Part shown: piece after piece, positions 5,492 through 53,715 of the stretch
Numbering within the stretch: position 1 is the stretch's first letter
How the letters are laid out: every line of letters starts with the position of its first letter
Source of the DNA: Solirubrobacter ginsenosidimutans
GTDB taxonomy: Bacteria > Actinomycetota > Thermoleophilia > Solirubrobacterales > Solirubrobacteraceae
Assembly: GCF_027587205.1 (NCBI RefSeq)
Contig: NZ_JAPDOD010000013.1
Span: 1 to 64,000 of the forward strand
Length of the DNA: 64,000 nt
Reading direction: 5' to 3'
Translations under genes and position numbers: made by a program
Notes under the pieces: generated by a model
The model's input: the letters and a program-made list of their open reading frames with translations, nothing else
The model's database searches: none
Told to the model about the DNA's origin: nothing

Positions 5492-6064
5492 GTGATCGCG
5501 GTGGCTCCCGGCACGATCGTCGCCGTCGTCGGGCACGACGGCGGGCCCGCGCGGGTCGCCGAGCGGGTCGCCTCGGAGTTCGCCGGGCGGCTCGGGCATG
5601 TCGCCGCGGGCCGGCCCGTCTTCGGCTCCCTCACCGTGGCCGAGAACCTCGCGGTCGGCGCGTACCGGGACCGAAGCGACAAGCGCCTCGTGGCGGAACG
5701 TCTCGCGACCGTCCACGCGCGGTTCCCCCGCCTCGCCGAGCGCGCGCAGCAACTCGCGGGCACGCTCTCCGGCGGCGAGCAGCAGCTGCTCGTGATCGCC
5801 CGCGCACTGATGGGCGCGCCCGAGTTGCTGATCCTCGAGGATCCCTCGGCCGGGCTCGCCCCGCCCGCCGTCAACGCGGTCGCCGAGGCCCTGGCGGGGC
5901 TCACGGTGCTGATCGCCGACGAACAGCTCGCCCTCGCCCGCCGCGCCGACCGGATCGTCCTCGTCGAGAACGACGCGATCGTGCTCGACCGACCGAAAGC
6001 CCAGGCGCTCGCGGACGAGCGCCTGGGCGTCGGCTACATCACGGGTTCGTCGTCGAGAGCGTGA
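5492..6064 (+). CDS. LivF-like ABC ATPase with degenerate P-loop
   Basis: 190 residues (LivF is about 235). Start GTG 5492 has GGGGTGA about 5 nt upstream. LivF hallmarks remain: AAGRPVFGSLTVAENLAVGAY, signature LSGGEQQLL, and LILEDPSAGLAP. The Walker A site is replaced by GHDGGPARV with no lysine or Ser/Thr pair. The Walker B end reads ED rather than DE. The region between P-loop and signature is shortened in the same place as in the fused LivG. It probably cannot bind ATP in the usual way and may act only as a dimer partner. Its 3' end overlaps the convergent propeller gene by 26 nt. Confidence 0.8.
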   Translation: MIAVAPGTIVAVVGHDGGPARVAERVASEFAGRLGHVAAGRPVFGSLTVAENLAVGAYRDRSDKRLVAERLATVHARFPRLAERAQQLAGTLSGGEQQLLVIARALMGAPELLILEDPSAGLAPPAVNAVAEALAGLTVLIADEQLALARRADRIVLVENDAIVLDRPKAQALADERLGVGYITGSSSRA

Positions 6065-8846
6065 ACGTCAGCGTCTTGCTGTAGTTGCCCGTCCGCAGCG
6101 GGTCGGTGGCGCCGATGTGCTGCTTGAACGTGACGGTCACCGGGTCGTTGGAGACCGGCGCGTCCCAGGTCGACTTCGACAGGTCCACCGAGAGCGGCGA
6201 CGGCAGCGCGAAGGTGCCGTTCGTCAGGTGGCCGGGATCGGACACGCTGAGCGTCGCGTCGCCCGCCGAGGAGATCACGTTCGCGGTCGTGGAGGCCGTG
6301 TAGTCCTTCTCCACGCCCGGCTGGAACGCGCCGAAGGAGGCCGACCCGCCCACGGTCAGCGCCAGCGTCGCCGGCACGGACCCGCCGGTTCCGCCGCCGT
6401 CGGTGGCATCGACGGACAGCGGCAGCTTCCACACACTGCGTCCGAACGTCGCCGCGAAGACGTACTTCCCGTCCCCGCTCAGCTTGACGTCGAGCACGGG
6501 CACGTTCGGCAGCCCGACGCTGATCTTGTACCAGGCCGAATCGCCGTCCTTGCGGTCGAACACGCCGACGTCGGTGGCCGCGTAGAGCACGTCGTGGGCG
6601 GCGTCGTAGGTGATCATCTCGACCGGCCCGTTGGGCAGGTTCTGCGAGATGTTCGCCCACGTCGCGCCACCATCGTGGCTCTCGTAGACGTTCGCCGCGT
6701 CCGAGCCTTCGCGGTAGCCCGAGAACGCCGCGTAGACGTGATTCTCGTCGGCGGGATCGACGACGATCGCGTTCACCCAGCGCTCCGGCACGCCCGTCAG
6801 CCGCGTCCAGTGCGCGCCCGCATCGGTCGTCTTCCACACGCGGCCGGTGTCCGTGCCCACGTAGAGCGTCTGCGCATACGGCACCGTCGTCGCCGACTTC
6901 GCCGGCGCGATCGAGGTGATCGTCGCGTACTCGTTGGCGTAGAACGGGCCGAGGTCGTTCTCGTCGGCCGGCACCGGGCCGGGCAGCGAGTTCGCGTCAT
7001 CGGCGGGCGAGATCATCGTGAACGCGCCGCCGCGGTTGGCCGAGCGGCCGAGGACCGTCCCGCCGAGGTAGATCACAGCGTCGTTGTTGGGGTCGACGAC
7101 GATCGGCGTGTCGGTCGTCCAGCGCTGGTTGGCCGGCCAGCCGTTGTTGGAGATCGTCAGGTTCGTCGTGCCGGTGGCCGTGTCGTGGAACCCACCGCAG
7201 GAATGACGCGGCGGCGACGGCTGGAAGCACTCGTAGTAGTAGCTCTGGTCGACGGGATCGATGACGTTCCAGTGCCCGTCGCCGCCGCCGTAGGAGTTCC
7301 AGTTCGTCAGCGCCGGGTCGGTCGGCGAGGGCGCCGCCGCGGTCCAGGAGCGAACCGAGCCGTTGTCCTGCAGGCCGGTCGCGAGCCGCTGCGAATCCTG
7401 CTGGGACACGGCGAGGTGGTACGACTGGTTCCACGGCTGGTTGGACGCCTTGATCCACGTGCCGGCGCCCACGCCGTTGGTGTCGGAGCGGTACATGCCG
7501 CCGTCGTTGCCGAGGTAGACGCGGCCGGGCTGATGCGGGTCCCAGTCCATCGCGTGCTGGTCGGAGTGCGGGCCGCTGACCGCGGTCCAGGTCTGGCCGC
7601 CGTTGGTCGACGTGCGGAGGTTCACGTCCGCGTTGAAGAGGTGGTTCTTGTCGAGCGGATCGACCCACAGGCGCCCGAACCACCACTGGTAGCCGCTCGA
7701 GGTCTGGTAGGCGCGCCCGCCGACGTGGAAGCTGTCGCCGCCGTCGTCGGAGTAGTAGAAGCCCTTGTCCGGGCCGTACGGGGAGCCCGTGACCACGTAG
7801 ACGCGGTTCGGGTCGCTCGGCGCGATCGTCACGCCGATCCGGCCCAGGCTCGCGTCCTGCTTGAGCCCGCTCTGCGCGGTGTCATACGCCGGCAGCGGGT
7901 CGACGATGTTCTGCAGGCGCTCCCACGTGTCGCCGCCGTCCTTGCTGCGGAAGAGGCCGGAGCCGACGCCGCCGTAGACGCGCGCGCCGTTGTTGCGCGT
8001 GTGATCCCACAGCGCCGCGTAGACGATCTGCGGGTTCGTGGGATTGATCGCCACGTCGATCGCGCCGGTCGTCGGCGTGGTCGGGGCGAGGACGAGCTGC
8101 CAGCTCTTGCCGCCGTCTTCCGTGCGATAGAGGCCGCGCTGCGCGGCCGAGCGCGAGACGTTGCCCGCGGCCGCCGCGAACACCTTGTCGGGGTTGGAGG
8201 GGTCGATGGCGATCCGCCCGATCGACGCGCTCTCGCGCAGGCCGACGTTGGTCCAGTGCGCGCCCTGGTCGGTGGACTTGTAGACGCCGTCGCCGAAGTA
8301 GGTCAGGCCGCCGCCGGGCGGGTTGGCCTCACCCGTCCCCGCCCACAGCGTGCCGTTCGCGTCCTGGGCCAGCGCGCCCATCGTCTGGGTCTGGTCGTTG
8401 GGCCAGACGGGGTTCCAGTTCACGCCGGCGTCGGCACTGTGCCAGACGCCGCCGCCCGAGACGGCCGCGTAGACGCCGTTGGCCGCCAGCTTGTCGGCCT
8501 GGACGTCGACCACGCGCCCGCCCACGTTGTACGGCCCGAGCTGCTGCCACGCGATCCCGCCGGCCGCGGCCGGGACGTCGGCCGCCTGCGCCTGCGCCTG
8601 CTTGACCTGCCCCTCGGTGACCGGGCTGGCCGAGCTCTGCTTGAGGTCCAGGTACTCGTCCGGATCGGTCTGGCCGGCGGCGATCGACTCGACCTCCGGC
8701 GGGACGACGAGGCCGGCGACGGAGCTCTTCGACGGCAGCGAGCTCGTGGAGCGCGTGAGCGCGAGCATCACCACCGCGTTGAGGAGCACGAGCGCGCCGA
8801 GTATTGCCGCGGTCAGCTTGACCTTGGACCGTTTCTTGGTCCGCAT
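6039..8846 (-). CDS. Secreted Asp-box (BNR/sortilin-type) beta-propeller protein with shared C-terminal module
   Basis: 935 residues. Start ATG 8846 follows GGAGGGA at good spacing. A basic N-terminus and one hydrophobic helix (about 10-31) serve as signal anchor. The body holds at least eight Asp-box motifs of the form S-x-D-x-G-x-x-W/F (for example HSADAGVNW, KSTDQGAHW, RTEDGGKSW, ESHDGGATW), as in VPS10/sortilin-like and sialidase-like propellers. No sialidase catalytic triad could be assigned, so a hydrolase activity is not claimed. Residues 824-935 are the module shared with three other secreted proteins here. Likely extracellular or surface-bound. Confidence 0.88.
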   Translation of the reverse strand: MRTKKRSKVKLTAAILGALVLLNAVVMLALTRSTSSLPSKSSVAGLVVPPEVESIAAGQTDPDEYLDLKQSSASPVTEGQVKQAQAQAADVPAAAGGIAWQQLGPYNVGGRVVDVQADKLAANGVYAAVSGGGVWHSADAGVNWNPVWPNDQTQTMGALAQDANGTLWAGTGEANPPGGGLTYFGDGVYKSTDQGAHWTNVGLRESASIGRIAIDPSNPDKVFAAAAGNVSRSAAQRGLYRTEDGGKSWQLVLAPTTPTTGAIDVAINPTNPQIVYAALWDHTRNNGARVYGGVGSGLFRSKDGGDTWERLQNIVDPLPAYDTAQSGLKQDASLGRIGVTIAPSDPNRVYVVTGSPYGPDKGFYYSDDGGDSFHVGGRAYQTSSGYQWWFGRLWVDPLDKNHLFNADVNLRTSTNGGQTWTAVSGPHSDQHAMDWDPHQPGRVYLGNDGGMYRSDTNGVGAGTWIKASNQPWNQSYHLAVSQQDSQRLATGLQDNGSVRSWTAAAPSPTDPALTNWNSYGGGDGHWNVIDPVDQSYYYECFQPSPPRHSCGGFHDTATGTTNLTISNNGWPANQRWTTDTPIVVDPNNDAVIYLGGTVLGRSANRGGAFTMISPADDANSLPGPVPADENDLGPFYANEYATITSIAPAKSATTVPYAQTLYVGTDTGRVWKTTDAGAHWTRLTGVPERWVNAIVVDPADENHVYAAFSGYREGSDAANVYESHDGGATWANISQNLPNGPVEMITYDAAHDVLYAATDVGVFDRKDGDSAWYKISVGLPNVPVLDVKLSGDGKYVFAATFGRSVWKLPLSVDATDGGGTGGSVPATLALTVGGSASFGAFQPGVEKDYTASTTANVISSAGDATLSVSDPGHLTNGTFALPSPLSVDLSKSTWDAPVSNDPVTVTFKQHIGATDPLRTGNYSKTLTFTLSTTNP
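6042..6377 (-). repeat. Shared C-terminal surface module, copy 1 (in the propeller protein)
   Basis: 112 residues beginning VPATLALTVG and ending TLTFTLSTTNP at the very C-terminus. Conserved points across the four copies: VPATL, FGxFxPGxxKDY, a Thr/Ser-rich strand, VSDPGHLxNG, FALPxPL, APVxNxxV, DPLRTGxYSKTL and a terminal TLSTTxP. Predicted all-beta. No Pfam name was recognised. Confidence 0.85.
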
Positions 8847-8919
8847 TTGCGAGTCCCTCCAGACTGGACCTGTACGTCCGCTTTATGATCGCGAACCCGG
8901 ATGAGAAATCGGGCCGAGG

Positions 8920-8925
8920 TAACGT
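8920..8925 (+). promoter_or_regulatory. Leaderless-type -10 (TAACGT) for the VOC gene
   Basis: TAACGT lies 7 nt before ATG 8933. This supports 8933 rather than the in-frame ATG at 8885, which would place the -10 inside the gene. Confidence 0.5.
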
Positions 8926-8932
8926 CCCGGCG

Positions 8933-9295
8933 ATGCTGCAACACGTCACGCTCGAGGTCAGGCAGGCACAGATCCGTGATTGCGTCGCCTTCTGGGAGCT
9001 GCTCGGCTTCAGCGAGATGGAGCCGCCGCCCATGCTGCGCGATCGCTTCACGTGGGTCGAGCGCGCGGGCACGCAGATCCACCTCGTCCCGGTCGACGCG
9101 CCGGTCGTCGCGCACGAGGGCCACGTCGCCGTGCTGGCGGACGACTACGACGCCACGCTGGCGCGCCTGTCGGACAACGGGTTCGAGCTGCGCCCGGGCT
9201 CAAACGCCTGGAACGCCCCGCGGACGTTCGTCCTGGATCCGGCCGGCCACCGCGTCGAGGTCATGTCGAAACCGCCCCACCCGCCCTGGCCGTAG
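8933..9295 (+). CDS. VOC-superfamily (glyoxalase/dioxygenase-like) protein
   Basis: 120 residues, one VOC repeat pair. It starts LQHVTLEV and has a CVAFWELLGFSE helix, a central GTQIHLVPVDAP strand with the first metal-type His/Gln region, HVAVLADDYDATLARL, and the C-terminal FVLDPAGHRVEVM strand with a Glu metal ligand. The fold family covers glyoxalase I, extradiol dioxygenases and antibiotic-binding proteins; the substrate is unknown. It is a single gene flanked by unrelated genes. Start chosen by the -10 spacing. Confidence 0.8.
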   Translation: MLQHVTLEVRQAQIRDCVAFWELLGFSEMEPPPMLRDRFTWVERAGTQIHLVPVDAPVVAHEGHVAVLADDYDATLARLSDNGFELRPGSNAWNAPRTFVLDPAGHRVEVMSKPPHPPWP

Positions 9296-9483
9296 CTCGA
9301 AAGTGGTGCGCCCGCTGAGCCGGTCGGTCAGGACGAGGGGTCAGCTCGTTCGGGGTCGCCGTTCGCAGTAGGCGGAAACGGGCTTTCGGCTCGCGGGCGC
9401 AGAGCCTCTATCCCTCGGATCGACCGCGTTCAAACGGTCGACGCATTCGGACGCGCCAGAACGTCATCCCGCGGACAGTCCGG

Positions 9484-9489
9484 TACGCT
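9484..9489 (+). promoter_or_regulatory. Candidate -10 (TACGCT) upstream of the cupin gene
   Basis: TACGCT sits 6 nt before an in-frame ATC at 9496. Elsewhere in the window a TANNNT hexamer 6-10 nt before the start marks likely leaderless genes. Confidence 0.4.
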
Positions 9490-9585
9490 CGCGACATCCG
9501 CAGGGCCGCTTTCGATCCCACCGCCTTCCGCTGGGAGGGCGTCGACGCTCGCGCGTACAAGGACGATCCGGGCACCGCTCGCGGC

Positions 9586-9954
9586 ATGGCGTGGCGAGGG
9601 CTGTCGCGGCACACGCTGGTGCGGGCGCCCGAGGCGGGCGTGTCGTTCGAGGTGCGCTACTTCGAGATCGCGCCGGGCGGGTTCTCTTCGCTGGAGAAGC
9701 ACGCGCACGTCCACGTCGTGTTCGCGGCCCGGGGCCGCGGACGCGCCTTGATCGGCGATCAGGTCGTCGACCTGGACCCGCTCGATCTGGTCGAGACGCC
9801 GCCGTTCGCGCCGCACCGGTGGGTCAACGCGGGCGAGGAGCCGTTCGGGTTCCTCTGCACCGTCGAGGGCGAACGCGACCGCCCGCAGCCGCTCGACGAC
9901 GCCGAGTGGGACGCGCTGCTGGCGAACCCGCTCACGGCGCCGTTCGCGTACTGA
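9586..9954 (+). CDS. Cupin-domain protein, start uncertain
   Basis: 122 residues from ATG 9586. Cupin motif 1 is visible as EIAPGGFSSLEKHAHVHVVFAARGRGRALIG, with H40, H42 and H44-type metal ligands preceded by a conserved-looking Glu. Motif 2 is PPFAPHRWVNAGEEPFGFLCTVEGERDRP. It probably binds a divalent metal; the substrate is unknown. The same frame stays open upstream and reads like more of this family (FRWEGVDARAYKDDPG), but it has no ATG, GTG or TTG back to the stop at 9316. The true start may be ATC 9496, or the 5' end may be damaged. The 3' end overlaps the dehydrogenase on the other strand by 23 nt. Confidence 0.75.
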   Translation: MAWRGLSRHTLVRAPEAGVSFEVRYFEIAPGGFSSLEKHAHVHVVFAARGRGRALIGDQVVDLDPLDLVETPPFAPHRWVNAGEEPFGFLCTVEGERDRPQPLDDAEWDALLANPLTAPFAY

Positions 9955-10969
9955 CGGAGTACTTCGCGGGCACGGGATCGTGCAGGCGGCCCGCGAGCGC
10001 GGCGGGCAGCTCGTCGAGGGTGATCTCGGGGCCGAGGAGCTCGTGCCACGGGTGCTCGGCCGCGGCGAGTACCTCCAGCGCGTGCGCGAGGTAGCGGGGC
10101 GCGTGGTGGTAGGTGCCGAGCAGGGTCACCTCCTCGTAGTGCACGCGTGCCGTCGGCACGGTGAAGGTGCTGTCGCGAGCGCACCCGCCGAACAGATTGA
10201 CGGTCCCGCCGGGAGCCGCCATCGCGACCGCGAGCTCCCAGCTTTCGGGTCGCCCGACCGCCTCGACCACGAGCTCCGCGCCGCGGCCGGCGGTCAGCCC
10301 GCGCACCCGTTGCGCGTCCGCGCTGGCGCGGGTCGCGAGGATCGTCTCCGCCGCCCCGAACCTCGTCGCCTGCGCGAGCCGCTCGGGGTGCGGGTCGAGC
10401 ACGATCGGCGCGCCGCCCGCAGAGGCGACGAGGGCGGCGAGCATCAGCCCGAGCGAGCCGCCGCCGAGGATCGCCACCGGGTCGCCGGCGCGGAGGTCGA
10501 CCGCGTCGAGCGCGTGCACGGCACAGGCGAGCGGCTCGGCCAGCGGGGCCAGCGCGAGCGGCACGCCGGCGGGGAGTCGATGGAGGTTCTTCGCGACCAC
10601 CCGCTCCGGGATCAGCAGCTTCTCGGCGAACCCGCCGAGCAGATACAGCAGGTCCTCGCACAGGCTCTCGCGCCCGCGCACGCACTGGTGGCAGACGCCG
10701 CACGGCGCGGAGTTGGCGCAGAAGACGACGTCACCGGCCGCGACCGTGGTCACACCCTCGCCGACCGACTCCACCGTGCCCGCGAACTCGTGCCCGAGCC
10801 GGGCGGGATAGCCGGCGATCGACGGGTGCCCGCGCTTGACGCTCTTGACGTCGGTCGCGCAGGAGGTCGCCGCCCCGATCGCGAGCACGATCTCGCCGGG
10901 CCCGGCGACCGGCTCGGCGACGTCCTCGATCCGCAGATCCCCGGGGCCGTGGAGCACGGCCGCCCTCAC
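9932..10969 (-). CDS. Zinc-dependent alcohol/polyol dehydrogenase (MDR family)
   Basis: 345 residues; GTG 10969 overlaps the preceding gene's stop as GTGA. Medium-chain dehydrogenase architecture. The catalytic-zinc region includes the SCATDVKSVKRG and GHEFAG segments. Structural-zinc cysteines lie in CANSAPCGVCHQCVRGRESLCED. The NAD(P) Rossmann motif is ILGGGSLGLML. This resembles the sorbitol/threonine dehydrogenase branch. Last gene of a three-gene operon with a paralogous dehydrogenase and an MtnA-like isomerase, so it likely oxidises or reduces a sugar or polyol intermediate. Confidence 0.88.
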   Translation of the reverse strand: MRAAVLHGPGDLRIEDVAEPVAGPGEIVLAIGAATSCATDVKSVKRGHPSIAGYPARLGHEFAGTVESVGEGVTTVAAGDVVFCANSAPCGVCHQCVRGRESLCEDLLYLLGGFAEKLLIPERVVAKNLHRLPAGVPLALAPLAEPLACAVHALDAVDLRAGDPVAILGGGSLGLMLAALVASAGGAPIVLDPHPERLAQATRFGAAETILATRASADAQRVRGLTAGRGAELVVEAVGRPESWELAVAMAAPGGTVNLFGGCARDSTFTVPTARVHYEEVTLLGTYHHAPRYLAHALEVLAAAEHPWHELLGPEITLDELPAALAGRLHDPVPAKYSVSTRTAP

Positions 10970-12929: not shown

Positions 12930-12946
12930 CCTCGCGCACCCGCCGG

Positions 12947-13447: not shown

Positions 13448-13523
13448 GGCGCGTTGACCTCCTGCGAGTGGGCGAAGACCCGAATGACATGAAAGTCAGT
13501 CGGATTTAACGCGTACCGTACAC

Positions 13524-14387
13524 CTACGCAGCGCCCACCGCACTCGGGGCGATCCATGCCGACACCGTCGCCGGGTCGGCCAGGTAGTCGTCGAAGCTGC
13601 GCGGGGCGTGACCGGTGACGCGCTCGACGTCGTCGGTGCTCGCCGCGTTGGTGCTGGCCCGGATGGCGTCGAAGAGCCAGCCGAGGATCTGTCCGTAGTC
13701 GGCCGGGATGCCGCCCGCGATCGCCGACTCGATCCAGTCGGCGACGGGCGGGTCGACGTGGGCGACCGGCTTGCCCGCGGCCACGGAGATCTTCTCGGCG
13801 ACCTGCGCGAAGGTGAGCGCGCCCGGGCCGGTCAGCGCGTACTCGCCGCGGTGGTGGCCGGCGGGGTCCAGCAGGGTCGCGGTGGCGACGTCGGCGATGT
13901 CGTCGGCGTGGACGAACGCCTCCGCCCCATCGCCGGTGGGTGCGATGAGCAGCCCGTCGGCCGCGATCGCCGGCTGGAAGAAGTACTCGTCGAAGTCCTG
14001 CATGAACCAGCCGGGGCGAAGGATGCTGTACGTCAAGTCCGACCGCCCTTCGAGGTCCTTCTCGATCGCACGCAGCATCATCTCCTCGGGCGCGAGCTCG
14101 ACGCCGCGCGCCGAGAGGAATGTGACGTGGCTGACGCCGGCGCCCTGGGCGCGGTCGAGAAACGCCTTGACCGCCGGTGCGGCGTCCAGCCGCAGCGCCG
14201 GCGGCACGAGGTAGAGCGCGTGCACGTCCGCGAGCGCCGGGTCGTGGGTCGAGACGTCGTCCCAGTCGAAGTGGACGTCCGCGCCGCTGCGGGCTGCGGT
14301 CCGGACGGCGGCGCCGGCGGCGCGCAGGCGGGGAGCGATGCGGCGCGCGGTCTTGCCCGTGCCGCCCAGAAGCAGGATCTTGGTCAT
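13524..14387 (-). CDS. NmrA/QOR2-type NAD(P)-binding oxidoreductase
   Basis: 287 residues from ATG 14387. The N-terminal MTKILLLGGTGKTARRIAPRL carries the atypical-SDR nucleotide motif GGTGKTA. There is no YxxxK pair at the usual site, as in NmrA-like proteins; the substrate region has ILRPGWFMQDFDEYFF and TGPGALTFAQVAEKIS. Likely an NAD(P)H-dependent quinone reductase or redox sensor. Divergent from the AraC-type regulator starting about 75 bp away, which probably controls it. Confidence 0.85.
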   Translation of the reverse strand: MTKILLLGGTGKTARRIAPRLRAAGAAVRTAARSGADVHFDWDDVSTHDPALADVHALYLVPPALRLDAAPAVKAFLDRAQGAGVSHVTFLSARGVELAPEEMMLRAIEKDLEGRSDLTYSILRPGWFMQDFDEYFFQPAIAADGLLIAPTGDGAEAFVHADDIADVATATLLDPAGHHRGEYALTGPGALTFAQVAEKISVAAGKPVAHVDPPVADWIESAIAGGIPADYGQILGWLFDAIRASTNAASTDDVERVTGHAPRSFDDYLADPATVSAWIAPSAVGAA

Positions 14388-14463
14388 GGAGAGCAGTTCA
14401 GCGTGCGCAGGTGTGCATTTCCATGCTGGAATCGCGCGTTCACATATGCCATCGTCTTGCGTC

Positions 14464-15432
14464 GTGGACGTACTCACCGACATGCTGGAGCGCTCGCGGG
14501 CGCGTGGCGCCGCGTTCTCGCATTCGCAGATCCGCGGCCCGTGGGGGCTCTTCTTCGACGGTGTACCGGGCCTGGCGGTGCACACGATCGTCGAGGGCGA
14601 GCTGTTCCTGTGGACCGAGGACGAGACGCTGCAACTGCTGCCGGGCGACATCGTGCTGGTGCGCGGCGGGCTCGATCACTCGCTCGCGAGCGAGCCGCAC
14701 CGCCGCTGCATCCCGCTGACGGAGTACATGGCGCAGGCGCGGGTGGCGGGCTCGCCGCGACGGTTCGCGTCGGGCGCGGGCGGCGAGACGTCCGAGTTCT
14801 TCTGCGGCGCCTACGTCTTCGAGGGCGACATCTGCGAGCGGCTGCTCTCGCTGCTGCCGGACACGCTGCGCCTGCGCCCGGGCGCCGGAAGCGCGCTGCG
14901 GGCGACGATGGACCTGCTGGCACGCGAGATGGACCAGGACGATCCCGGGCAGCAGACGCTGCTCGACCGGCTGCTCGACGTCGCGCTCGTGCAGGTGCTG
15001 CGCGAGCACTTCGGCGCGGTGGGCGAGGCCGCGCCGGCGTGGTTTCGCGCCTCCGCCGACCCGCAGATCGGCCCGGCGCTACGGGCCCTGCACGCAGACC
15101 CGTCGCGCCGCTGGACGGTCGAGGACCTGGCGGCCGAGGCGACGCTCTCGCGCGCCGCGTTCGCCCGCCGCTTCAGCGCGCTGCTCGGCGTCGCACCGCT
15201 CGCGTACCTGACCGGCTGGCGGATGGCGCTCGCACGCGAGCGGCTGCGCGACTCCGACGACGGGATCGCCGGAGTCGCCGACGCGCTCGGCTACGCGTCG
15301 GAGTTCTCCTTCGCCGCCGCGTTCAAGCGCCACCACGGCGTGGCGCCGGGACGCTGGCGGGTCAGCGCGCGAAGACCAGCTGACTCACCGAGAACACCGC
15401 TCCTTGCGGATCGGCCAGCACGGCGTTCCTGA
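14464..15432 (+). CDS. AraC-family transcriptional regulator with cupin sensor domain
   Basis: 322 residues from GTG 14464 (MDVLTDMLERSRARG fits the usual start of cupin_6/AraC regulators); ATG 14446 in frame is an alternative. Residues 20-190 form a cupin-like sensor domain (PWGLFFDGVPG, LLPGDIVLVRGG). The C-terminal 100 residues hold two helix-turn-helix motifs: WTVEDLAAEATLSRAAFARRF and GIAGVADALGYASEFSFAAAFKRHHG. It likely regulates the divergent NmrA-type reductase. The last 71 nt overlap the VOC gene on the opposite strand. Confidence 0.88.
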   Translation: MDVLTDMLERSRARGAAFSHSQIRGPWGLFFDGVPGLAVHTIVEGELFLWTEDETLQLLPGDIVLVRGGLDHSLASEPHRRCIPLTEYMAQARVAGSPRRFASGAGGETSEFFCGAYVFEGDICERLLSLLPDTLRLRPGAGSALRATMDLLAREMDQDDPGQQTLLDRLLDVALVQVLREHFGAVGEAAPAWFRASADPQIGPALRALHADPSRRWTVEDLAAEATLSRAAFARRFSALLGVAPLAYLTGWRMALARERLRDSDDGIAGVADALGYASEFSFAAAFKRHHGVAPGRWRVSARRPADSPRTPLLADRPARRS

Positions 15433-16132: not shown

Positions 16133-16140
16133 GGGTCGGC

Positions 16141-16150
16141 ACGTTACGCT
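16141..16150. promoter_or_regulatory. Overlapping divergent -10 elements
   Basis: The ten bases acgttacgct contain TAACGT on the minus strand (8 nt before the VOC start at 16132) and TACGCT on the plus strand (10 nt before ATG 16161). The two promoters share DNA and should compete. Confidence 0.45.
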
Positions 16151-27073: not shown

Positions 27074-29410
27074 CTACGGCGTCGTGGTCGACAGGGTAAA
27101 CGTCAGGGTCTTGTTGTACGCACCCGTGCGGAGCGCGTCGTTGGCCGAGACGTGCTGGCCGAACGTGATCGTCGCCGCGTCGTTGCTCGTCGGGCCGCTG
27201 TAGGTCAGCAGCTTCGTCGGAGCGGCGGAGCCGCCGACATCCGCGAGCGCGCTTCCGACGCCGGCCGCGCTGGTGGCCTTGGCCTGCAGCAGCGACGGCA
27301 GCGAGAACGTGCCGTTGAGCAGGTGACCGGTCGCCGTCGCCGACGGGTCGGCCACGCTGAGCGCGGCGTCACCGGCGGTCGAGATGACGTTGGCCGTCGT
27401 GTTGGCCGTGTAGTCCTTCGCGATGCCCGGCGTGAACGCGCCGAACGTGGCCGGCGTGCCCATCGTCAGGGCGAGCGTGGCCGGAACGGCGCCACCGGCG
27501 CCACCGGTCTGGACGTCCGCGACCTTCGGCGGCGTCTGCGACTTGTCGCAGGAGTTCCAGCAGACGAGCGGCTGCACGACGCCCTTGATCGGGTCCGTGT
27601 AGCGGAGCACGTCGATGCCGCGGGTGTAGTCGGCGACGTAGATGAAGCCGTTGTGCCAGTAGGCGGCCGACGTGTTGTTGGCCAGCTGCGCCGGGGTGCT
27701 CCCCGAAGCCGCGATGGCCGGCACGCGGAAGTAGCCCGCCTGCTTGATGTCGGTCGGGTCGGACACGTCGAGGACGCGCGTGCCCTGGCCGTAGAAGCCG
27801 ATCGCGACCATGTCGCCGACGACCGAGAACCAGTGTGCCGAGCAGCCCGCGCTCGGGTTCGCGCCCGGCTGGCCCGTCGGCGTGTAGTCGTCGAGCTTCT
27901 CGAGGAAGTAGCGCTTGGTCGGATCCGTGGCGCTCCACTGCGGGTCCCAGGCCTTGCCGCCGTAGCTGCCGGCGAGGCTGGTGGTGACGAAGCGGCCCGC
28001 GCCGCCGCCGCTGGTCGACGTGCAGCTGACCGTGTTCTCCTGCGTGACGTACTGCAGGTCGGTCTTGTTGATCGTGCGCCCGCCGGCCGTCGTGACCGTC
28101 TTCGGGGACGTGTCCGAAGGCGCCTGCGTGCGGTGGTAGGAGTTGTGCTCGAGGCTGAACTGCGCGTACTGCGCGTCGGACTCCAGCGAGACGACGCCGC
28201 CGCCCGCGTACGGGATCGGGTCGGTCGCGGTCGCCCAGCGATCCGTGTTCGACACGACGTCGTGATGGAAGCCGTTGGTGTAGTAGCCGCGCACGCCGCC
28301 GAAGCCGGAGGTCCAGGCGAGGCCGTCCTGATCGACGTCGACGGAGTGGGTGTACGCCGTCGTGTTGTTGTTGCGCTTGGTGTCCACCGGGTTGGCGTAC
28401 ACGTACGGGTGGTTCGGGTCACGGACGTCGGTGACGAACGTCGGGACGCCGGTCCACTCCGGGTGCAGCACGCCCGCGGCGTCCTGCGGCTGGCCGTTGA
28501 CGTGCGAGCCGTTGTTGGCCGGGCCGACGCTCCAGAGGTAGCGGCAGTCGTTGATGCACGTGGCGGTGTGGCCCGCGGGGACCCAGGTGTAGCTGATGAC
28601 CTGCGGGTGCCACGGGTCCTTGACGTCCACGATGTAGAGGCCGGTGCGGCCGTTCGGGTGGCCGCTTGAGCCGAAGGAGCGCGGGTCGCGGGCCAGGAAG
28701 GCCAGCTTGCGGCGAGAGTCGACGGTGGGGTTCTCACCCTCGTAGAAGCGGGCCTGCGTGTCGGCCGGGCCGTGCGAGTCGGCCGGCTGGACCAACGACG
28801 TGGCGGAGACGCCGCCGACGAACAGCGGCTTGTCCGGGCTCTTGAGCGACCAGATCGACAGGCCGCCGGTGCCGTCACCGAGCAGGAAGTCGTAGCCGAG
28901 GTTCTCGAAGTGCATGAACGTCGCGCCGGCGTAGTTGCCGTTCGCGGCGGTCGGGTTGGTCGCCGAGTTGGAGAGACCGCGCGAGTTCGAGACCCACTGC
29001 ATGTTGTCGCTCTTGACCGCGCCCTCGGCGGTCTGATGCGCGTCGGTCGGCAGCGTCGGGTTCACCGGCTCGGTGGCGATGCCGCCGTTGACGCCCGCCA
29101 GCGAAGCGGACTCCTTGTCGGCGTTCGCGGTCGCCGTCGCGCACTTGGCCGCGTCGGCGGCGGCGGTCGCCTGCTTGGCGACGTTGCCCGGATCCGCGGC
29201 CGCGGCGGCGGCGGAGGCCGTCGCGGCGTCGCACGCCAGCTTCTTCAGGTCATTCGCGCGATTGACCGTGGCCTGCGACGTCGCCGCCTGCGTCTCGGGC
29301 GCGTCGCCCGGCCCTTCCGGTGCTGTCTGCGCGAGCGCCGACCCAGCGCCCACGGTTCCCAGCAGGATCGCTGCAGACAGCAGCGATCCCACAACCCTAC
29401 GACCCTCCAT
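27074..29410 (-). CDS. Secreted LVIVD-repeat protein with shared C-terminal module
   Basis: 778 residues from ATG 29410, with GAGGGGG about 6 nt upstream. Signal peptide ending GSALAQ. An Ala-rich helical segment with two cysteines lies at about 45-90. The body is an LVIVD-type propeller (GLYIVDVKDPWHPQVIS, TRVLDVSDPTDIKQAGYF, GIDVLRYTDP) with many aromatic and His residues. The C-terminal 137 residues are the shared module with a 25-residue insertion. LVIVD proteins are surface or exported and of unknown activity. Confidence 0.87.
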   Translation of the reverse strand: MEGRRVVGSLLSAAILLGTVGAGSALAQTAPEGPGDAPETQAATSQATVNRANDLKKLACDAATASAAAAAADPGNVAKQATAAADAAKCATATANADKESASLAGVNGGIATEPVNPTLPTDAHQTAEGAVKSDNMQWVSNSRGLSNSATNPTAANGNYAGATFMHFENLGYDFLLGDGTGGLSIWSLKSPDKPLFVGGVSATSLVQPADSHGPADTQARFYEGENPTVDSRRKLAFLARDPRSFGSSGHPNGRTGLYIVDVKDPWHPQVISYTWVPAGHTATCINDCRYLWSVGPANNGSHVNGQPQDAAGVLHPEWTGVPTFVTDVRDPNHPYVYANPVDTKRNNNTTAYTHSVDVDQDGLAWTSGFGGVRGYYTNGFHHDVVSNTDRWATATDPIPYAGGGVVSLESDAQYAQFSLEHNSYHRTQAPSDTSPKTVTTAGGRTINKTDLQYVTQENTVSCTSTSGGGAGRFVTTSLAGSYGGKAWDPQWSATDPTKRYFLEKLDDYTPTGQPGANPSAGCSAHWFSVVGDMVAIGFYGQGTRVLDVSDPTDIKQAGYFRVPAIAASGSTPAQLANNTSAAYWHNGFIYVADYTRGIDVLRYTDPIKGVVQPLVCWNSCDKSQTPPKVADVQTGGAGGAVPATLALTMGTPATFGAFTPGIAKDYTANTTANVISTAGDAALSVADPSATATGHLLNGTFSLPSLLQAKATSAAGVGSALADVGGSAAPTKLLTYSGPTSNDAATITFGQHVSANDALRTGAYNKTLTFTLSTTTP
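27077..27487 (-). repeat. Shared C-terminal surface module, copy 2 (LVIVD protein)
   Basis: 137 residues from VPATLALTMG to TLTFTLSTTTP. Same landmarks as copy 1. It is longer because SVADP is followed by SATATGHLLNG, and extra residues precede SNDAATITFGQHV, so the loop between strands is variable while both ends are fixed. Confidence 0.85.
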
Positions 29411-29472
29411 GCAATTCCCCCTCGTACGACCCAAGAACTGTCATCTGAGCCTAATGGGAGGCTTAAGCGCGG

Positions 29473-44769: not shown

Positions 44770-44794
44770 CTCGCAGTAGAACTAAGAAACCTTC

Positions 44795-44823: not shown

Positions 44824-44916
44824 CACCGCTGTCTACAACGGTCTGTAGATCCAGAGCGAGAGCAACTGGCGGCGCGGTTTGAGGGACCACCCCGACGCGG
44901 CCGAAGGAGGAGAGTC

Positions 44917-45963: not shown

Positions 45964-45966
45964 ACG

Positions 45967-47804: not shown

Positions 47805-47811
47805 GACCGAC

Positions 47812-47837
47812 CGGCGGGCGGCACGCGCCGCCCGCCG
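47812..47837 (+). terminator. GC-rich hairpin after the sugar ABC operon
   Basis: A perfect 11-bp inverted repeat with loop ACGC lies between the ATPase stop and the lacI start. No U-run follows, so it may only attenuate or stabilise the upstream mRNA. Confidence 0.5.
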
Positions 47838-47847
47838 ACCAGCTCCC

Positions 47848-48855
47848 ATGAGTACTCGCCGGCCCACGATGAAGGACGTCGCGGCGGTGGCCGGGGTCAG
47901 CCTCGCCACCGTGTCGCGGGTCGTCAACGACGTCCCGGTCGACCCGGTCCTCGCCGGCCGTGTGCAGGATGCGGTCACCCGGCTCGGCTACCGCCGCGAC
48001 GCCGCGGCGGCCGGGCTGCGCCGGGCGAACCGCAGCTCGGCCAGTATCGGGATCGTCCTCGACGACGTGGCGAACCCGTTCTTCTCGGCCGTGCACCGCG
48101 GGCTCGAGGAGGTCGCGCGGGCGCGCGGCGTGCTGATCTTCTCCGGCAGCTCCGACGACGACCCCGCGCTCGAGCGCGACCTCGCGCTGTCGTTCAGCGC
48201 CCACGGCGTCGACGGGCTCGTGATCGTCCCGGCGGGGACGGATCACCGCTACCTCGAGCGTGAGCGCGCCGCCGGGATCGCGCTGGTCTTCGTTGACCGC
48301 CCGCCGCAGCGGATCCTCGCCGACGCGGTGCTCACCGACAACGCCGGCGGGGTCCGCGACGCCGTCGCGCACCTGCTCGCGGCCGGCCACCGGCGGATCG
48401 GCTACCTCGGCGACCGCAGCCACATCTTCACCGCCGCCGAGCGCCTCGGCGGCTACCTGGCGAGGGGCGAGGAGTCGCTGGTGCGGATGGACCTCGTCGG
48501 CAGCGAGGCCGCCGAGCGCGGTGCGCTCGAGCTGTTGCAGGGCCCCGACCCGCCGACCGCGCTCATCTGCGGGCAGAACCATCTGACGATCGGCGCGCTC
48601 TACGCCCTGCGCGCGCTCGGCCTCGAGGCCGAGGTCGCCCTCGTCGGGTTCGACGACATTCCGCTCGGCGGGCTCGTGCGGCCGGGCGTGACCGTCGTCG
48701 CGCAGGACCCGGTGGCCCTGGGCCGCCACGCCGCCGAGTTGCTGTTCGCCCGTCTGGAGGGCGACGACTCGCCGCCGCGGCGGATCGTGGTCCCGACGCG
48801 GCTGATCGCCCGCGGGTCGGGGGAGATCCGTCCGAGCGACCGGATGAGATCCTGA
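47848..48855 (+). CDS. LacI-family transcriptional regulator
   Basis: 335 residues. N-terminal helix-turn-helix and hinge: TMKDVAAVAGVSLATVSRVVND. The rest is a periplasmic-binding-like sensor (SIGIVLDDVANPFFSAVHRGLEEVA, VDGLVIVPAG, VALVGFDDIPLGG, DPVALGRHAAELLFARL). It very likely represses the adjacent sugar ABC operon until the sugar or a phosphate ester binds. The region around residues 200-220 is shorter than in the paralogue downstream. Confidence 0.92.
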   Translation: MSTRRPTMKDVAAVAGVSLATVSRVVNDVPVDPVLAGRVQDAVTRLGYRRDAAAAGLRRANRSSASIGIVLDDVANPFFSAVHRGLEEVARARGVLIFSGSSDDDPALERDLALSFSAHGVDGLVIVPAGTDHRYLERERAAGIALVFVDRPPQRILADAVLTDNAGGVRDAVAHLLAAGHRRIGYLGDRSHIFTAAERLGGYLARGEESLVRMDLVGSEAAERGALELLQGPDPPTALICGQNHLTIGALYALRALGLEAEVALVGFDDIPLGGLVRPGVTVVAQDPVALGRHAAELLFARLEGDDSPPRRIVVPTRLIARGSGEIRPSDRMRS

Positions 48856-48890
48856 GCCAAGAGTGAGGTCCGCAGGCGGCTCGCCTCCGC

Positions 48891-48896
48891 TACGGT
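48891..48896 (+). promoter_or_regulatory. Leaderless-type -10 (TACGGT)
   Basis: TACGGT ends 7 nt before GTG 48904, giving the second lacI gene its own promoter. Confidence 0.5.
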
Positions 48897-48903
48897 CGCG
48901 CAA

Positions 48904-49926
48904 GTGAACCTGGTCCCTCCAAACGGCCGCAGGCCGACGATGAAGGACGTCGCGGCGATGGCGGGCGTTAGCCTCAGCACGGTCTCGCGCGTCGTCAACG
49001 GCAGCCCGCCGGTCGCACCCGAGCTCGCCGTCAAGGTCGAGCGGGCGGTCGAGATGCTCGGCTACCGGCACAATCACACCGCGGGCACGCTGCGCCGCGC
49101 GAACGGCCTGTCGGGCTCGCTCGGCCTGATCATCGAGGACGTCTCGAATCCGTTCTTCTCCGCCGTGCACCGCGGGATCGAGGAAGTGGCCCGCACGCGT
49201 TCGGTGGTCACGTTCGCCGGCAGCTCCGACGAGGACGCCGAGCGCGAGCACGCGCTGATCGAGGCCGTGCTCGCGCGCCGGGTCGACGGGCTGATCGTCG
49301 TCCCGACCGCCGCCGATCACACCTACCTGCTGCGCGACGTCGCCAACGGCCTCGGCCTCGTGTTCGTCGACCGCCCGGCGCAGTCGATCGACGCCGACAG
49401 CGTGCTCAGCGATAACCGCGGCGGCGCGCAGCGGGCGGTCGAGCACCTGCTCGCCCACGGGCATCGCCGGATCGCCTTCGTCGGTCCGCCGCCGACGCTC
49501 TACACCGCCCGCGAGCGGCTGGCCGGGTACCGCGCGGCGCTCGCTCCGGCAGGGCTCAGCGAGCTCGTGCGCCACGCGGTGGAACCGGCCGACGCCTACG
49601 GCGCCGTGCTCGGGCTGCTCGACTCAGACCACGCGCCGACGGCGCTCTTCACGAGCCAGAACCTGATCACGATCGAGGCGCTGCGCGCGCTGCACGGGCG
49701 CGGCCGCCAGCATGAGATCGCGCACGTGGGCTTCGACGACATCGTGCTCGCCTCCGCCATCGATCCCGCCGTGACCGTCATCGCGCAGGACCCGGTCGGC
49801 CTCGGCCGCGCCGCCGCGGAGCTGCTGTTCTCGCGGCTGGACGGCTTCGTCGGCCCGTCGCGGCGGGTCGAGCTCCCCACTCCGCTGGTCGTGCGCGGGA
49901 GCGGGGAGCTCCGACCGCCGGGCTAA
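48904..49926 (+). CDS. LacI-family transcriptional regulator, paralogue
   Basis: 340 residues, GTG start. Helix-turn-helix TMKDVAAMAGVSLSTVSRVVNG and sensor VSNPFFSAVHRGIEEVARTRS, VDGLIVVPTAADH, IAHVGFDDIVLASAIDPAVTVIAQDP. It is so similar to its upstream neighbour, segment by segment, that a tandem duplication is the simplest origin. The recognition helices differ by one or two residues, so the operators may be shared. The stop overlaps the convergent esterase stop. Confidence 0.92.
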   Translation: MNLVPPNGRRPTMKDVAAMAGVSLSTVSRVVNGSPPVAPELAVKVERAVEMLGYRHNHTAGTLRRANGLSGSLGLIIEDVSNPFFSAVHRGIEEVARTRSVVTFAGSSDEDAEREHALIEAVLARRVDGLIVVPTAADHTYLLRDVANGLGLVFVDRPAQSIDADSVLSDNRGGAQRAVEHLLAHGHRRIAFVGPPPTLYTARERLAGYRAALAPAGLSELVRHAVEPADAYGAVLGLLDSDHAPTALFTSQNLITIEALRALHGRGRQHEIAHVGFDDIVLASAIDPAVTVIAQDPVGLGRAAAELLFSRLDGFVGPSRRVELPTPLVVRGSGELRPPG

Positions 49927-51554
49927 GGGCTCGTCGTCGACAAGGTGAACGTCAGCGTCTTCGAGTACACGCCCGTGCGGAGCGGGTCGGCGGCGTCGAC
50001 GTGCTGCGCGAAGCCGATCGCGACGGCCTCGTTGGCCACCGGTGCGGACCACGCGGTCTTGGCGAGCTTCACGATCAGCGGTGACGGCAGCGCGAACGCG
50101 CCGTTGACCAAGTGGCCGGGATCGGAGACCGTGAGCGCGGCGTCGGCCGCGGTCGAAGTCACCGTGGCCGTCGTCGAGGCGCTGTAGTCCTTGGTCACGC
50201 CCGGCACGAGCGTGCCGAAGGACGGTGCCGGGCCGAGGGTCAGCGCCAGCGTCGCGGGCACCGCGGCCCCGACGGTCGTCGCGGGCGCGCTGATCGGGAG
50301 CGAGGGATCGTCGAGCCAGGTGACCGCGTCGGCGAGGGCCTTCATCCCTGTGTCGTTGGGGTGTAGGTGGTCGCCGCTGTCGTAGGCGGGCAGCAGCCGC
50401 AGCGGATTCGCCGGATCGGCGAGCGCCGCTTCGAAGTCGACGATCCCGTCCCAGTAGGGAGCGGTACGGATGAACTGGTTGATCGCCATCCGCTTGGCGT
50501 CCTTCTCGACGCTGTAGTAGCCCGCGAGGGTGGCGTTCTGAAACGGCGTGAGCGTGGCCATGATCACCTTCAGGCCCGCGCGGTGCAGCCGGTCGGCGAG
50601 CTGGCGCATGCCGTCCGTGATGTCGTCGACGACGACGGTCTCGTTCGAGTAGTTGCCGATGTCGTTGATGCCGAGGGCGACGATCACGGTGCTGACGCCG
50701 TCGTGGGAGATCACGTCCCGGTCCAGGCGCGAGAGGCCGCTCGGATTGCCGCCGCAGCAGTTGTAGTCCTTGAGCACCGAATTGCCGCTGATGCCCTCGT
50801 TGACGACGCCGCGCACGCCGACGCGGTTGCCGACCGCATTCAGCCGGGCGGCGAGATAGTCGGGCCAGCGGTGATTGGTGTTCGAGGTCGAGTTGGCGCC
50901 CTCGGTGATCGAGTCCCCCAACGCGACGACCGCGCCGATCGAATCGCCGGTCTCGACGCTCACCGCGTCCAGGAACCACCAGCTGTTGGTGATGCTCGTG
51001 AACCCGGTCGCGTCCATCTGCGCCGCGCGGTCGCCACCGCCGGCCGGCGTCATGTAGGAGCGCTGACGCGCGCCGCTGTGGTAGCTGGCATTGGGCGTCG
51101 TGCCCGGGACGAAGATCGAGATCGCGAGGTTGTCTCCGTCGCCCACCGGCAGTGCGACCGGGTCCGACACGACGTCGCTGTCCGGTGAGATCTTGACCGT
51201 CGGGCGCCCGCCGAACGTGACCTGCGTCTGCGTCCCGGGCACCACCGCGGCGGTGGTCCCGGACTGGCGCCCGACGTAGACGCTGCCGATCTGCAACGCC
51301 GTCGCGTCCAGGAAGGCGTCGCCGGCCGCGGCCGGGTAGGCGCCGAACGCGTTCGAGATGCGCAGGCGCACCTTGCTCCCGCCCACGCTGATGTGGACGA
51401 TCTGACGGATCGTGAGGTTGGTGAGCGTGCGCCGGGAGTCCGGCTGCGTGCTCGCGCCCCACGTCGTGACCCAGTGCGTGCCGGCGGCATGTGCCGGCGC
51501 CGCGGCGAGCAGCGTGGTGGCGGCCGCCAGCGCGGCCGCGAGCTTGACCTTCAT
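49923..51554 (-). CDS. Secreted SGNH/GDSL hydrolase with shared C-terminal module
   Basis: 543 residues; GGGGGAG 7 nt before ATG 51554. Signal peptide ending AHAAG. Residues 25-200: a beta-rich accessory region. Residues 205-415: SGNH esterase with Ser215 in GDSITEG, Gly in GISGN, Asn in GINDIGN, Asp395 and His398 in DHLHPND. Residues 432-543: shared module. A likely role is deacylation of an extracellular polysaccharide, in line with the deacetylase gene just upstream (16-nt gap, same operon). Confidence 0.9.
   Translation of the reverse strand: MKVKLAAALAAATTLLAAAPAHAAGTHWVTTWGASTQPDSRRTLTNLTIRQIVHISVGGSKVRLRISNAFGAYPAAAGDAFLDATALQIGSVYVGRQSGTTAAVVPGTQTQVTFGGRPTVKISPDSDVVSDPVALPVGDGDNLAISIFVPGTTPNASYHSGARQRSYMTPAGGGDRAAQMDATGFTSITNSWWFLDAVSVETGDSIGAVVALGDSITEGANSTSNTNHRWPDYLAARLNAVGNRVGVRGVVNEGISGNSVLKDYNCCGGNPSGLSRLDRDVISHDGVSTVIVALGINDIGNYSNETVVVDDITDGMRQLADRLHRAGLKVIMATLTPFQNATLAGYYSVEKDAKRMAINQFIRTAPYWDGIVDFEAALADPANPLRLLPAYDSGDHLHPNDTGMKALADAVTWLDDPSLPISAPATTVGAAVPATLALTLGPAPSFGTLVPGVTKDYSASTTATVTSTAADAALTVSDPGHLVNGAFALPSPLIVKLAKTAWSAPVANEAVAIGFAQHVDAADPLRTGVYSKTLTFTLSTTSP
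49926..50261 (-). repeat. Shared C-terminal surface module, copy 3 (SGNH esterase)
   Basis: 112 residues from VPATLALTLG to TLTFTLSTTSP, no gap relative to copies 1 and 4. Confidence 0.85.
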
Positions 51555-51570
51555 CGACGTTCTCCCCCGG

Positions 51571-53715
51571 TTACGGCGTCGTGGTGGACAGCGTGAAGCC
51601 GAGCGTCCGGCTGTAGGCGCCCGTGCGCAGCGCGTCGGTGGCCTCGACTCGCTGCCTGAACGTGATCGCCACCGCCTCGTTGGCGACGGGTCCGTCCCAA
51701 CTGGCCTTGGCGAGCTCGACGCGCAACGGCTGCGGCAGCGCGAAGACCCCGTTGGTCAGGTGGCCGGGGTCGCTCACGGTCAGCGCCGCGTCCCCCGCGC
51801 TCGACGTGACCGTGGCAGTGGTGGACGCCACGTAGTCCTTCGCCACCCCTGGCGCGAAGGCCCCGAAGGTGGGCGGCGCGCCGAGTGTGAGCGAGAGCGT
51901 CGCCGGCACCGACCCGCCGACGTCGCCCGGCACGGGTGCCGCCGTGCTGATGCGATCGGCGGCCGTGTCGACCCACACGTTGCCGCTGCGGCCGGTCACC
52001 TTCGGCGCGGTCGTCAGTACCGGACCGGCCGTGCTCGCGACGCGGACGCCGATGGCGATCGGCGGGAACGTCGCGCCCGGCGCGAGGACGTCGTTGCGGG
52101 TGCACGTGATCGTCGCGGTGCCCGTGCACGTCCACCCCGTCCCGTTCGCGCCGGTCGCGGTGAGCCCGGCGGGGATCGCCTGCGTGACCGTCGTCGTGCT
52201 GCCGTCGGTCGGCCCGTCGGTCGGGTTGGACACCGCCAGCGTGAGCGTCCCGGTCTCGCCGCGCACGAACACCGCGGGGCTGTGGGTCGCGGCGAGCTTG
52301 AGCGGCTGCGGGACCGTGACGGCCGGCGCCGGAGCGCTGCCGGGATAGGCGAGCGGCAGATACGGGACCGGGTTGGTGACGGTGGGGATCGGCGCGCCGG
52401 AGGACACGTAGCGGTTCGCGACGACCTGGCCGGCGCGGTCGACGGTGCCGAAGCAGTACCCGCGGGCGCGCGCGGCGTCGATGATCAGCGGCACCGCGTC
52501 GACGGTCGCCTGCCCGGCAGGCGAGTCGACCGGACCGTCATGGAGCAGGATCGCGACCCCCGGGCGCAGCGCGTTGACGATCCCGTCGCGGATCTGCGCC
52601 GCCGAGCGCGCGGGGTCCCAGTCGGTGGCGGAGATGGGATTCGGCGTGACGGTGAAGCCCATGGCCGCCAGCGCGGCCGTCGTGGCCGCGTTGACCGAGA
52701 GGAACGGCGGCCGTAGGACGTTGAACGAGTACGGCGCGCCGTTCGCCGCGAAGCGCGCGGCGGTGTCGGTGACCTCGAAGGCCAGGACGTTCGCGGGGAT
52801 CGAGCCCAGGTTGGGGTGATCCCAGCTGTGGCCGAGCAGCGTGTGGCCCTCGGCGAGCTCGAAGCGGCTGAGCTGCGGATTGGCCTCCAGCCGCATGCCG
52901 ACGTCGAAGAACGTGACCGGGACGCCCTTCGCCCGCAGGTGCGCCAGGGTCTGGGCCCGGTAGACGGACGGTCCATCGTCGAAGGTCAGGGCGATCCGCG
53001 TGTTGCACGAGTTGTCCGGTCCCGCGGTCGGGGCCTTGATCGCGGCGACGATCGCCGCCGCCGAGCTGCCCGGGAACTGCGCGGCGATTTCGTCGACCCT
53101 CGCGACGAATGCGGCGTCGTCGGCGAACGGCTCTCCCTCCCACACGAGGTCGAGCAGCGTGCAACCGTCCGGGCGCTCCGGGTTCAGCGGTCCGCTCGCC
53201 CACCCGTTCGGGCACGCGTCGGCTGCGACGGGGATGTCGTCGGTGGCGCTCGCCCCCGCCGCGTCTCCGCCGCCGGTGAGCGTCGGCGCGGTGCGCACGG
53301 TCGTCCCGGCGGAGCTCGCCACCGAGACCGTGATGGTGATCGGCGGGTAGCCGCCTCCCGGTGCGAGCACGTCGCTGCGAGTACAGCGGCTCGTGGTCGT
53401 GCCGGTGCATGTCCAGCCCGGCCCTGACGCGGCGGTGGGCCCCGCTCCGGCGCCCGGGTTGTTCGTCAGCGCGCCCAGTCCGGCCGGCAGCGTCTCGGTG
53501 ACGGTGACCACGCTTCCGTCGGTCGCATCGGCTCCGCCATTGGTGACGCGGAGGGTCAGGGTGCCGGCGTACAGCGTCGTGTTCGGTGCCTGTGCCCGTA
53601 GGAACGTCGGGCTCGCGTGCGACGCCGAGAGCGTCAGGTCAGGCGCCGCCGCAGCCGGCGCCGCGGGCAGCATCAACAGCGCTGCCGTGACCCACAGCGC
53701 GCGATGAGCGTTCAT
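51571..53715 (-). CDS. Secreted polysaccharide deacetylase with two DUF11-like domains and shared C-terminal module
   Basis: 714 residues; GGAGGAGAGG upstream of ATG 53715. Signal peptide ending PAAAAP. Residues 25-150: DUF11-like beta domain (VTETLPAGLGAL, GWTCTGTTTSRCTR). Residues 215-425: NodB domain with TFDDGPS, metal motif HSWDHPN and RPPFLSVN. Residues 455-590: a second DUF11-like domain (VTQAIPAGLTATG). Residues 603-714: shared module. It should remove acetyl groups from an N-acetylated surface polysaccharide or peptidoglycan. Co-transcribed with the SGNH esterase. Confidence 0.9.
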   Translation of the reverse strand: MNAHRALWVTAALLMLPAAPAAAAPDLTLSASHASPTFLRAQAPNTTLYAGTLTLRVTNGGADATDGSVVTVTETLPAGLGALTNNPGAGAGPTAASGPGWTCTGTTTSRCTRSDVLAPGGGYPPITITVSVASSAGTTVRTAPTLTGGGDAAGASATDDIPVAADACPNGWASGPLNPERPDGCTLLDLVWEGEPFADDAAFVARVDEIAAQFPGSSAAAIVAAIKAPTAGPDNSCNTRIALTFDDGPSVYRAQTLAHLRAKGVPVTFFDVGMRLEANPQLSRFELAEGHTLLGHSWDHPNLGSIPANVLAFEVTDTAARFAANGAPYSFNVLRPPFLSVNAATTAALAAMGFTVTPNPISATDWDPARSAAQIRDGIVNALRPGVAILLHDGPVDSPAGQATVDAVPLIIDAARARGYCFGTVDRAGQVVANRYVSSGAPIPTVTNPVPYLPLAYPGSAPAPAVTVPQPLKLAATHSPAVFVRGETGTLTLAVSNPTDGPTDGSTTTVTQAIPAGLTATGANGTGWTCTGTATITCTRNDVLAPGATFPPIAIGVRVASTAGPVLTTAPKVTGRSGNVWVDTAADRISTAAPVPGDVGGSVPATLSLTLGAPPTFGAFAPGVAKDYVASTTATVTSSAGDAALTVSDPGHLTNGVFALPQPLRVELAKASWDGPVANEAVAITFRQRVEATDALRTGAYSRTLGFTLSTTTP
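51574..51909 (-). repeat. Shared C-terminal surface module, copy 4 (deacetylase)
   Basis: 112 residues from VPATLSLTLG to TLGFTLSTTTP. It shares VANEAVAI with copy 3, so copies 3 and 4 are the closest pair. Confidence 0.85.

Follow-up and report, generated by a model that had tools for sequence, protein, structure and literature searches.

C-Terminal Sorting Domains and an Apparently New Module in Solirubrobacter

C-terminal surface-sorting domains are known as a kind, among them the LPXTG, PEP-CTERM and type IX domains, in which one C-terminal signal serves many unrelated cargoes, and the WxL domain (PF13731), which ends exported proteins and has WxLIP (PF06030; DUF916-DUF3324) as its partner. 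For the WxL system we draw on two papers (PMC9772566, PMC10599100), in the second of which AlphaFold2 complexes are reported to place a hairpin strand of WxLIP parallel to a WxL strand, completing the WxL sandwich. Here we describe a domain, called the module below, that ends four proteins encoded in the first 64,000 nucleotides (positions 1-64,000; the window) of contig NZ_JAPDOD010000013.1 of Solirubrobacter ginsenosidimutans (GCF_027587205.1), where alone the copies of this species were counted.

The module shares with LPXTG, PEP-CTERM and type IX domains the use of one terminal signal on many unrelated cargoes, but it is a folded domain of about 113 residues, with STTxP at the stop codon, and it lacks both the hydrophobic stretch and the basic tail. 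With the WxL/WxLIP system it has in common its place as the terminal domain of exported proteins, a last strand of the form G-x-Y-x-x-T-L-T, and a WxLIP-like gene in one operon; moreover, it fills the slot held by a WxL-like domain in an equivalent Streptomyces phosphoesterase. It differs from WxL domains, which have two W-x-L motifs, in containing no W-x-L and in being scattered through each genome in 69 to 150 copies. Both this type of module and the scale of its use appear to be new, as does the pilin-like fold predicted for it, and among the papers listed by searches on WxL/WxLIP and on Solirubrobacter C-terminal domains, exported proteins and sorting, no title describes it.

The reading that we favor, and consider fairly probable, sees in the module a non-catalytic beta-sandwich of pilin-like fold, placed at the C terminus, that retains exported enzymes and propellers of Solirubrobacter on the cell surface, working in a WxL-like manner as a separate, genus-expanded type. 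It is built on the shared domain, the copy number, the zero-residue tail, the predicted folds, the operon, and its exchange for a WxL-like domain in one shared slot.

Four Copies in the Window

The four proteins and their modules are the following.
6039..8846, minus strand: VPS10/BNR-type beta-propeller protein (Pfam/NCBIfam scan), 935 residues, with an N-terminal hydrophobic segment and a C-terminal module
6042..6380, minus strand: module of the propeller protein, 113 residues, running to the stop codon; the copy used for the structure model
27074..29434, minus strand: LVIVD / choice-of-anchor-B-like exported protein, 786 residues from TTG, with a C-terminal module
27077..27490, minus strand: module of the LVIVD protein, long form of 138 residues with loop insertions, running to the stop codon
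49923..51554, minus strand: SGNH/GDSL esterase, 543 residues, with a signal peptide and a C-terminal module
49926..50264, minus strand: module of the SGNH esterase, 113 residues, running to the stop codon
51571..53715, minus strand: polysaccharide deacetylase, 714 residues, with a signal peptide, two DUF11 stretches and a C-terminal module
51574..51912, minus strand: module of the deacetylase, 113 residues, running to the stop codon

The original prediction, made from the sequence by a model, did not mention that all four genes are encoded on the minus strand. That prediction, of one C-terminal domain shared by the four proteins, is borne out, as the other three modules are 67, 68 and 69% identical to the propeller copy and 57 columns are invariant across the four. 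Their E-values of 1e-49 to 1e-54, from a profile that includes them, are far beyond chance. Counted from VPATL, the module has 112 residues in three copies and 137 in the LVIVD copy. The TLSTTxP ending stands directly at the stop in 4/4 copies, with no residue after it. The other motifs proposed as common to all hold with small exceptions and are not strictly universal: the SGNH esterase has FGTLVPG instead of FGxFxPG, the LVIVD protein has VADPSATATGHLLNG and YNKTL, and the deacetylase has YSRTL. The adjoining esterase and deacetylase modules are 72% identical in DNA over 300 nt and are therefore not recent duplicates.

The Pfam/NCBIfam scan of these four proteins recovered a VPS10/BNR propeller, a GDSL lipase, a polysaccharide deacetylase with DUF11 and, weakly, choice_anch_B in the LVIVD protein (E 0.0043), with no best-scoring stretch at E<=1 inside the module. 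Export of all four, as originally claimed, is passed by a crude signal-peptide script (4/4), but by eye only three N-termini have the look of a signal peptide, whereas in the propeller the hydrophobic segment shows no clear site for cleavage. The LVIVD gene starts at TTG 29434 or, likelier, at ATG 29410; it was scanned from the TTG, and its signal-peptide call may rest on the wrong start.

The Module Is Fixed at the Protein End

A scan of named genomes gave 162 relatives spread over 196 stretches, and keeping the best 80 yielded 76 loci, all from Solirubrobacter. In the loci analysed, 140 unique open reading frames (ORFs) carry 141 domain matches, and in 138 of them no residue follows the module. 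The exceptions are an altered end in locus L042 and a degenerate short copy in the overlapping loci L004 and L087:
L042, 8524-10342, plus strand: module with the last six residues differing
L004, 11390-11903, plus strand: ORF of 171 residues, degenerate module without its middle

Full-length modules (n = 142) span 108 to 141 residues, since insertions enter the middle loop, and 141 of them end in proline, a count that leaves out modules short of the profile's end. The ten copies in low-copy genomes outside Solirubrobacter (G049 included) are likewise all terminal and all end in proline, although one of them, in L149, is a poor match that may not be a real gene. Among the 120 best global matches, the tail is zero in 119 and one residue in the other. 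No mid-protein copy was found among the interior stretches checked, the weak ones (8/128 and 28/208 listed) being chance except in the flawed copies L042, L004 and L087. By reading, the stop directly follows STTxP or a close variant of it, with a V-G-G-type linker before the module.

In the structure model, the 6042-6380 copy is predicted to form a pilin-like beta-sandwich, for which the archaic chaperone-usher pilin (CsuA/B) and the tip-adhesin pilin domain are the comparison systems. Unlike archaic pilins, which have invariant cysteines, the module has a cysteine in just 3/142 copies; no donor-type extension is seen, searching the PDB by sequence gave chance-level rows only, and Solirubrobacter is regarded as monoderm. 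Scanned against Pfam, 48 diverse copies gave seven families at E<=1, each in at most three members, the best single match having E 0.0065.

A pilin-like model and a single tag on many hydrolases are also what would be expected of an assembly tag, with modules binding one another or a scaffold to form a multi-enzyme complex in dockerin-like fashion. We judge this unlikely, given that a scaffold with repeated receptor domains was not seen (no search was aimed at one), that mid-protein copies were not found, and that what precedes the module reads as a V-G-G-type linker only.

A Phosphoesterase Operon with Exchangeable Ends

In six genomes (G001, G002, G003, G004, G017 and G049), a phosphoesterase with the module and a following WxLIP-like gene form one operon. 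The WxLIP-like gene adjoins the phosphoesterase and a HupE-like gene and does not lie in a WxL cluster. G221 has the same gene order, with the WxLIP-like gene following, but the C-terminal domain of its phosphoesterase is another one, which bears a WxL-like motif and shares 99% identity with the C-terminal domain of a protein from Streptomyces fructofermentans. In their catalytic parts, the enzymes of G221 and G049 agree at 61% of 493 columns, with the alignment breaking off where the last domain begins. PF13731 is matched at E<=1 by 10 of 13 such Streptomyces-type domains (best E 7.7e-5), and none of the 13 matches another family, the scores inspected being below the curated cut-off; alignments took 13 of 120 listed Streptomyces-type proteins and 62 of 120 listed WxLIP-like homologs. 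Within Solirubrobacter, the phosphoesterases of L114 (S. soli) and L115 (G017) share 86% identity in their catalytic parts and 60% in their modules. The same phosphoesterase with different module types (L115 and L116 versus L114 and L113) suggests that recombination has replaced the tail. As one slot with one type of downstream partner takes different kinds of C-terminal domain, the exchange is the best evidence that the module does the job of a WxL domain.

The downstream protein is predicted to have two immunoglobulin (Ig)-like domains and a C-terminal membrane helix, in a WxLIP fold. PF06030 is matched by 49/62 WxLIP-like homologs at E<=0.01 (best 5.1e-11), although the Solirubrobacter and Conexibacter members fall mostly below its cut-off, only that of G002 being above. 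It differs from WxLIP (DUF916-DUF3324) in that DUF3324, the host-binding domain, is absent among the 17 families matched by the 62 homologs (E<=0.01). Arg138 and Tyr165 are invariant in this set and would be candidates for a clamp on the module's C terminus if the module is held as in WxL-WxLIP complexes.

Solirubrobacter itself has a small WxL-like pair: in S. phytolaccae, a second WxLIP-like protein and a small secreted protein with a weak PF13731 match (L141 7064-8083, minus strand; L117 1483-2214, minus strand) adjoin an enzyme that carries a module and reads like GH10. In G034 (L136, minus strand), the stop of a short module-like exported protein (14483-15364) overlaps the start of a two-Ig-like exported gene (13722-14483), the sole match of which is a weak E-set (TcfC, E 0.037); as a WxLIP-like candidate this gene was rejected (hhalign 1%).

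Unrelated Partners and Scattered Neighbors

The cargoes of the module are diverse. Fifty-eight module proteins, out of 86 with a signal peptide, match 50 Pfam families when accessory domains are counted; zinc carboxypeptidase and X-Pro dipeptidyl-peptidase lead with six proteins each. That several partners are glycosidases or esterases would suit a carbohydrate-binding module steering hydrolases to their substrate rather than to the cell's own wall. This we regard as the least probable of the explanations, as peptidases, amidases, propellers and the LVIVD protein have no common substrate and carbohydrate-binding modules are seldom tied to the last residue.

By the crude script, a signal-peptide-like start is present in 86/102 complete module ORFs versus 167/437 coding-like ORFs without the module in the same loci; the count leaves out the 38/140 ORFs cut by locus edges, and part of the misses resemble over-extended ORFs or N-terminal membrane anchors. 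By this measure the partners are mostly export-like. The strict terminal position and the many unrelated cargoes would also fit a secretion or maturation signal, in which the C-terminal domain would be read, in a type IX-like way, by an exporter or protease dedicated to it and perhaps be removed. We hold this to be quite improbable: most partners already have signal-peptide-like starts, a monoderm host has no second membrane to cross, and no dedicated gene adjoins the modules. Across the window and 76 loci, the 326 genes at most two places from modules make up 244 families, and even the biggest, an ABC ATPase, has just 11 members. From such scattered neighbors it follows that the module is used in trans, like a sorting domain.

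Some neighbors and fusions deserve mention on their own. In the window, the deacetylase gene (51571-53715) lies 16 bp upstream of the SGNH esterase gene (49923-51554) on the same minus strand, and the two are likely an operon of polysaccharide-modifying enzymes, both ending in the module. The deacetylase domain is flanked by two DUF11-type stretches (51988-52155 and 53269-53436) that are 70% identical in DNA. Two neighboring plus-strand genes (47848-48855 and 48904-49926) converge on this operon and, by motif, read like putative LacI-type regulators. An HtaA domain (E 4e-5; weak, E 0.005) is fused to distant relatives of the module (L135 8810-10042, minus strand; L138 7070-8329, plus strand) in two genomes of the family sample, G013 and G023, each with a single copy.

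A Genus-Level Expansion

A protein search accepted 4341/7994 scored candidates at E<=0.001, mostly from metagenome sources among the 120 matches listed. Modules number at least 150 in S. soli (150 of 226 candidates scored), at least 148 in S. taibaiensis and at least 146 in S. phytolaccae (150 of 188 scored in each), 107 in S. deserti CPCC 204708 (144 scored) and 69 in Ca. S. pratensis (107 scored). In a family sample of 61 genomes, 9 carry the module, with at least 76 copies each in G001 (the centre), G004, G005 and G017 and 1-3 in the five others; G017 and G005, at 77% DNA identity, are separate species. In a class sample, 7/299 genomes have a copy at E<=1e-10. The profile search proposed originally upheld the terminal position and gave a genus-level expansion in Solirubrobacter, not a phylum-wide domain. 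On the module tree, species labels change 50 times versus a shuffled mean of 83 (lowest 75 in 100 shuffles), which says only that modules cluster by species, most forks being poorly supported.

How the Module Might Work

In the reading that we favor, the module would keep exported proteins attached to the cell surface after export. Its recognition edge would be the last strand (RTGxYSKTLTFTLSTTxP) together with the free carboxyl of the terminal proline, and a wall polymer or surface partner would clamp this edge. In one conserved operon, the partner would be the membrane-anchored two-Ig protein of WxLIP type. If the module were held as in WxL-WxLIP complexes, a fixed C terminus would be expected. 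Surface retention, last-strand binding and the nature of the receptor are what we infer here.

Several observations weigh against WxLIP as the general receptor. The WxLIP-like gene occurs in 3/299 genomes of the class sample at E<=1e-40 (G001, G017 and G049; 8 candidates scored per genome); these lie within the 7 module genomes, and the other four, including the many-module G005, are without it. Both class counts apparently come from the same 299-genome draw, in which genomes are related and are not independent events. G001, G003, G004, G017 and G049 have one WxLIP-type match each beside many modules, none was found in S. deserti CPCC 204708 (two assemblies; 107 modules), and the gene is not a recurrent neighbor of other module copies (76 loci and the window). 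Membership of the WxL family is not supported, with PF13731 matching 0/48 modules at E<=1 and hhalign giving 1% probability, though the hhalign test is weak, as two WxL-like sequences score just 7.7% against each other. Against either the Streptomyces WxL-like domain or the small S. phytolaccae WxL-like protein, hhalign aligned the last strand alone, which in the module reads L-T-F-T-L, with W-x-L in 0/142 copies. Likeness in sequence is thus confined to the last strand, too little to show homology. The one PF13731 match in six genomes (E 9.3e-4, below cut-off) is a different small protein. No solved WxL chain was found by sequence search or among the 50 structure matches listed for the module, which proves nothing.

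The original prediction of a sorting or anchoring role accordingly fits the terminal position and the export-like partners, but a dedicated processing or anchoring gene, whose co-occurrence with the module was proposed as a check, was not found as a constant companion. Its WxL analogy, offered as distant, is strengthened by the slot exchange and the WxLIP-like gene, though not as far as family membership. With few WxLIP proteins beside many modules, and none found in CPCC 204708, the general receptor would be the wall itself or another protein.

A more specific possibility is that the module is an incomplete Ig domain to which WxLIP or an analogue, as a two-Ig protein anchored in the membrane, supplies a strand, clamping the C terminus between its Ig domains like a pilus chaperone. 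The scarcity of WxLIP ranks surface retention above this donor-strand system, which we consider rather unlikely. Marginally less doubtful, and still tentative, is the broader proposal that a monoderm uses donor-strand complementation to display its secretome, with more than 100 enzymes having tip-adhesin-like pilin ends held through a donated strand and a carboxylate clamp by membrane two-Ig proteins related to WxLIP and pilus chaperones. If so, chaperone-usher pilins, WxL domains and the module would represent variations on a single, ancient means of keeping proteins at a surface, with a C-terminal domain exchangeable in one slot.

Significance

In five Solirubrobacter genomes, one domain for which no matching Pfam/NCBIfam model was observed marks 69 to at least 150 exported-type proteins per genome, and under surface retention it would define a cell-surface or secretome compartment. 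The strict proline end makes its mechanism testable. The WxL-like exchange in an equivalent operon would, moreover, be a natural experiment on surface retention in Gram-positive bacteria without a sortase signal.
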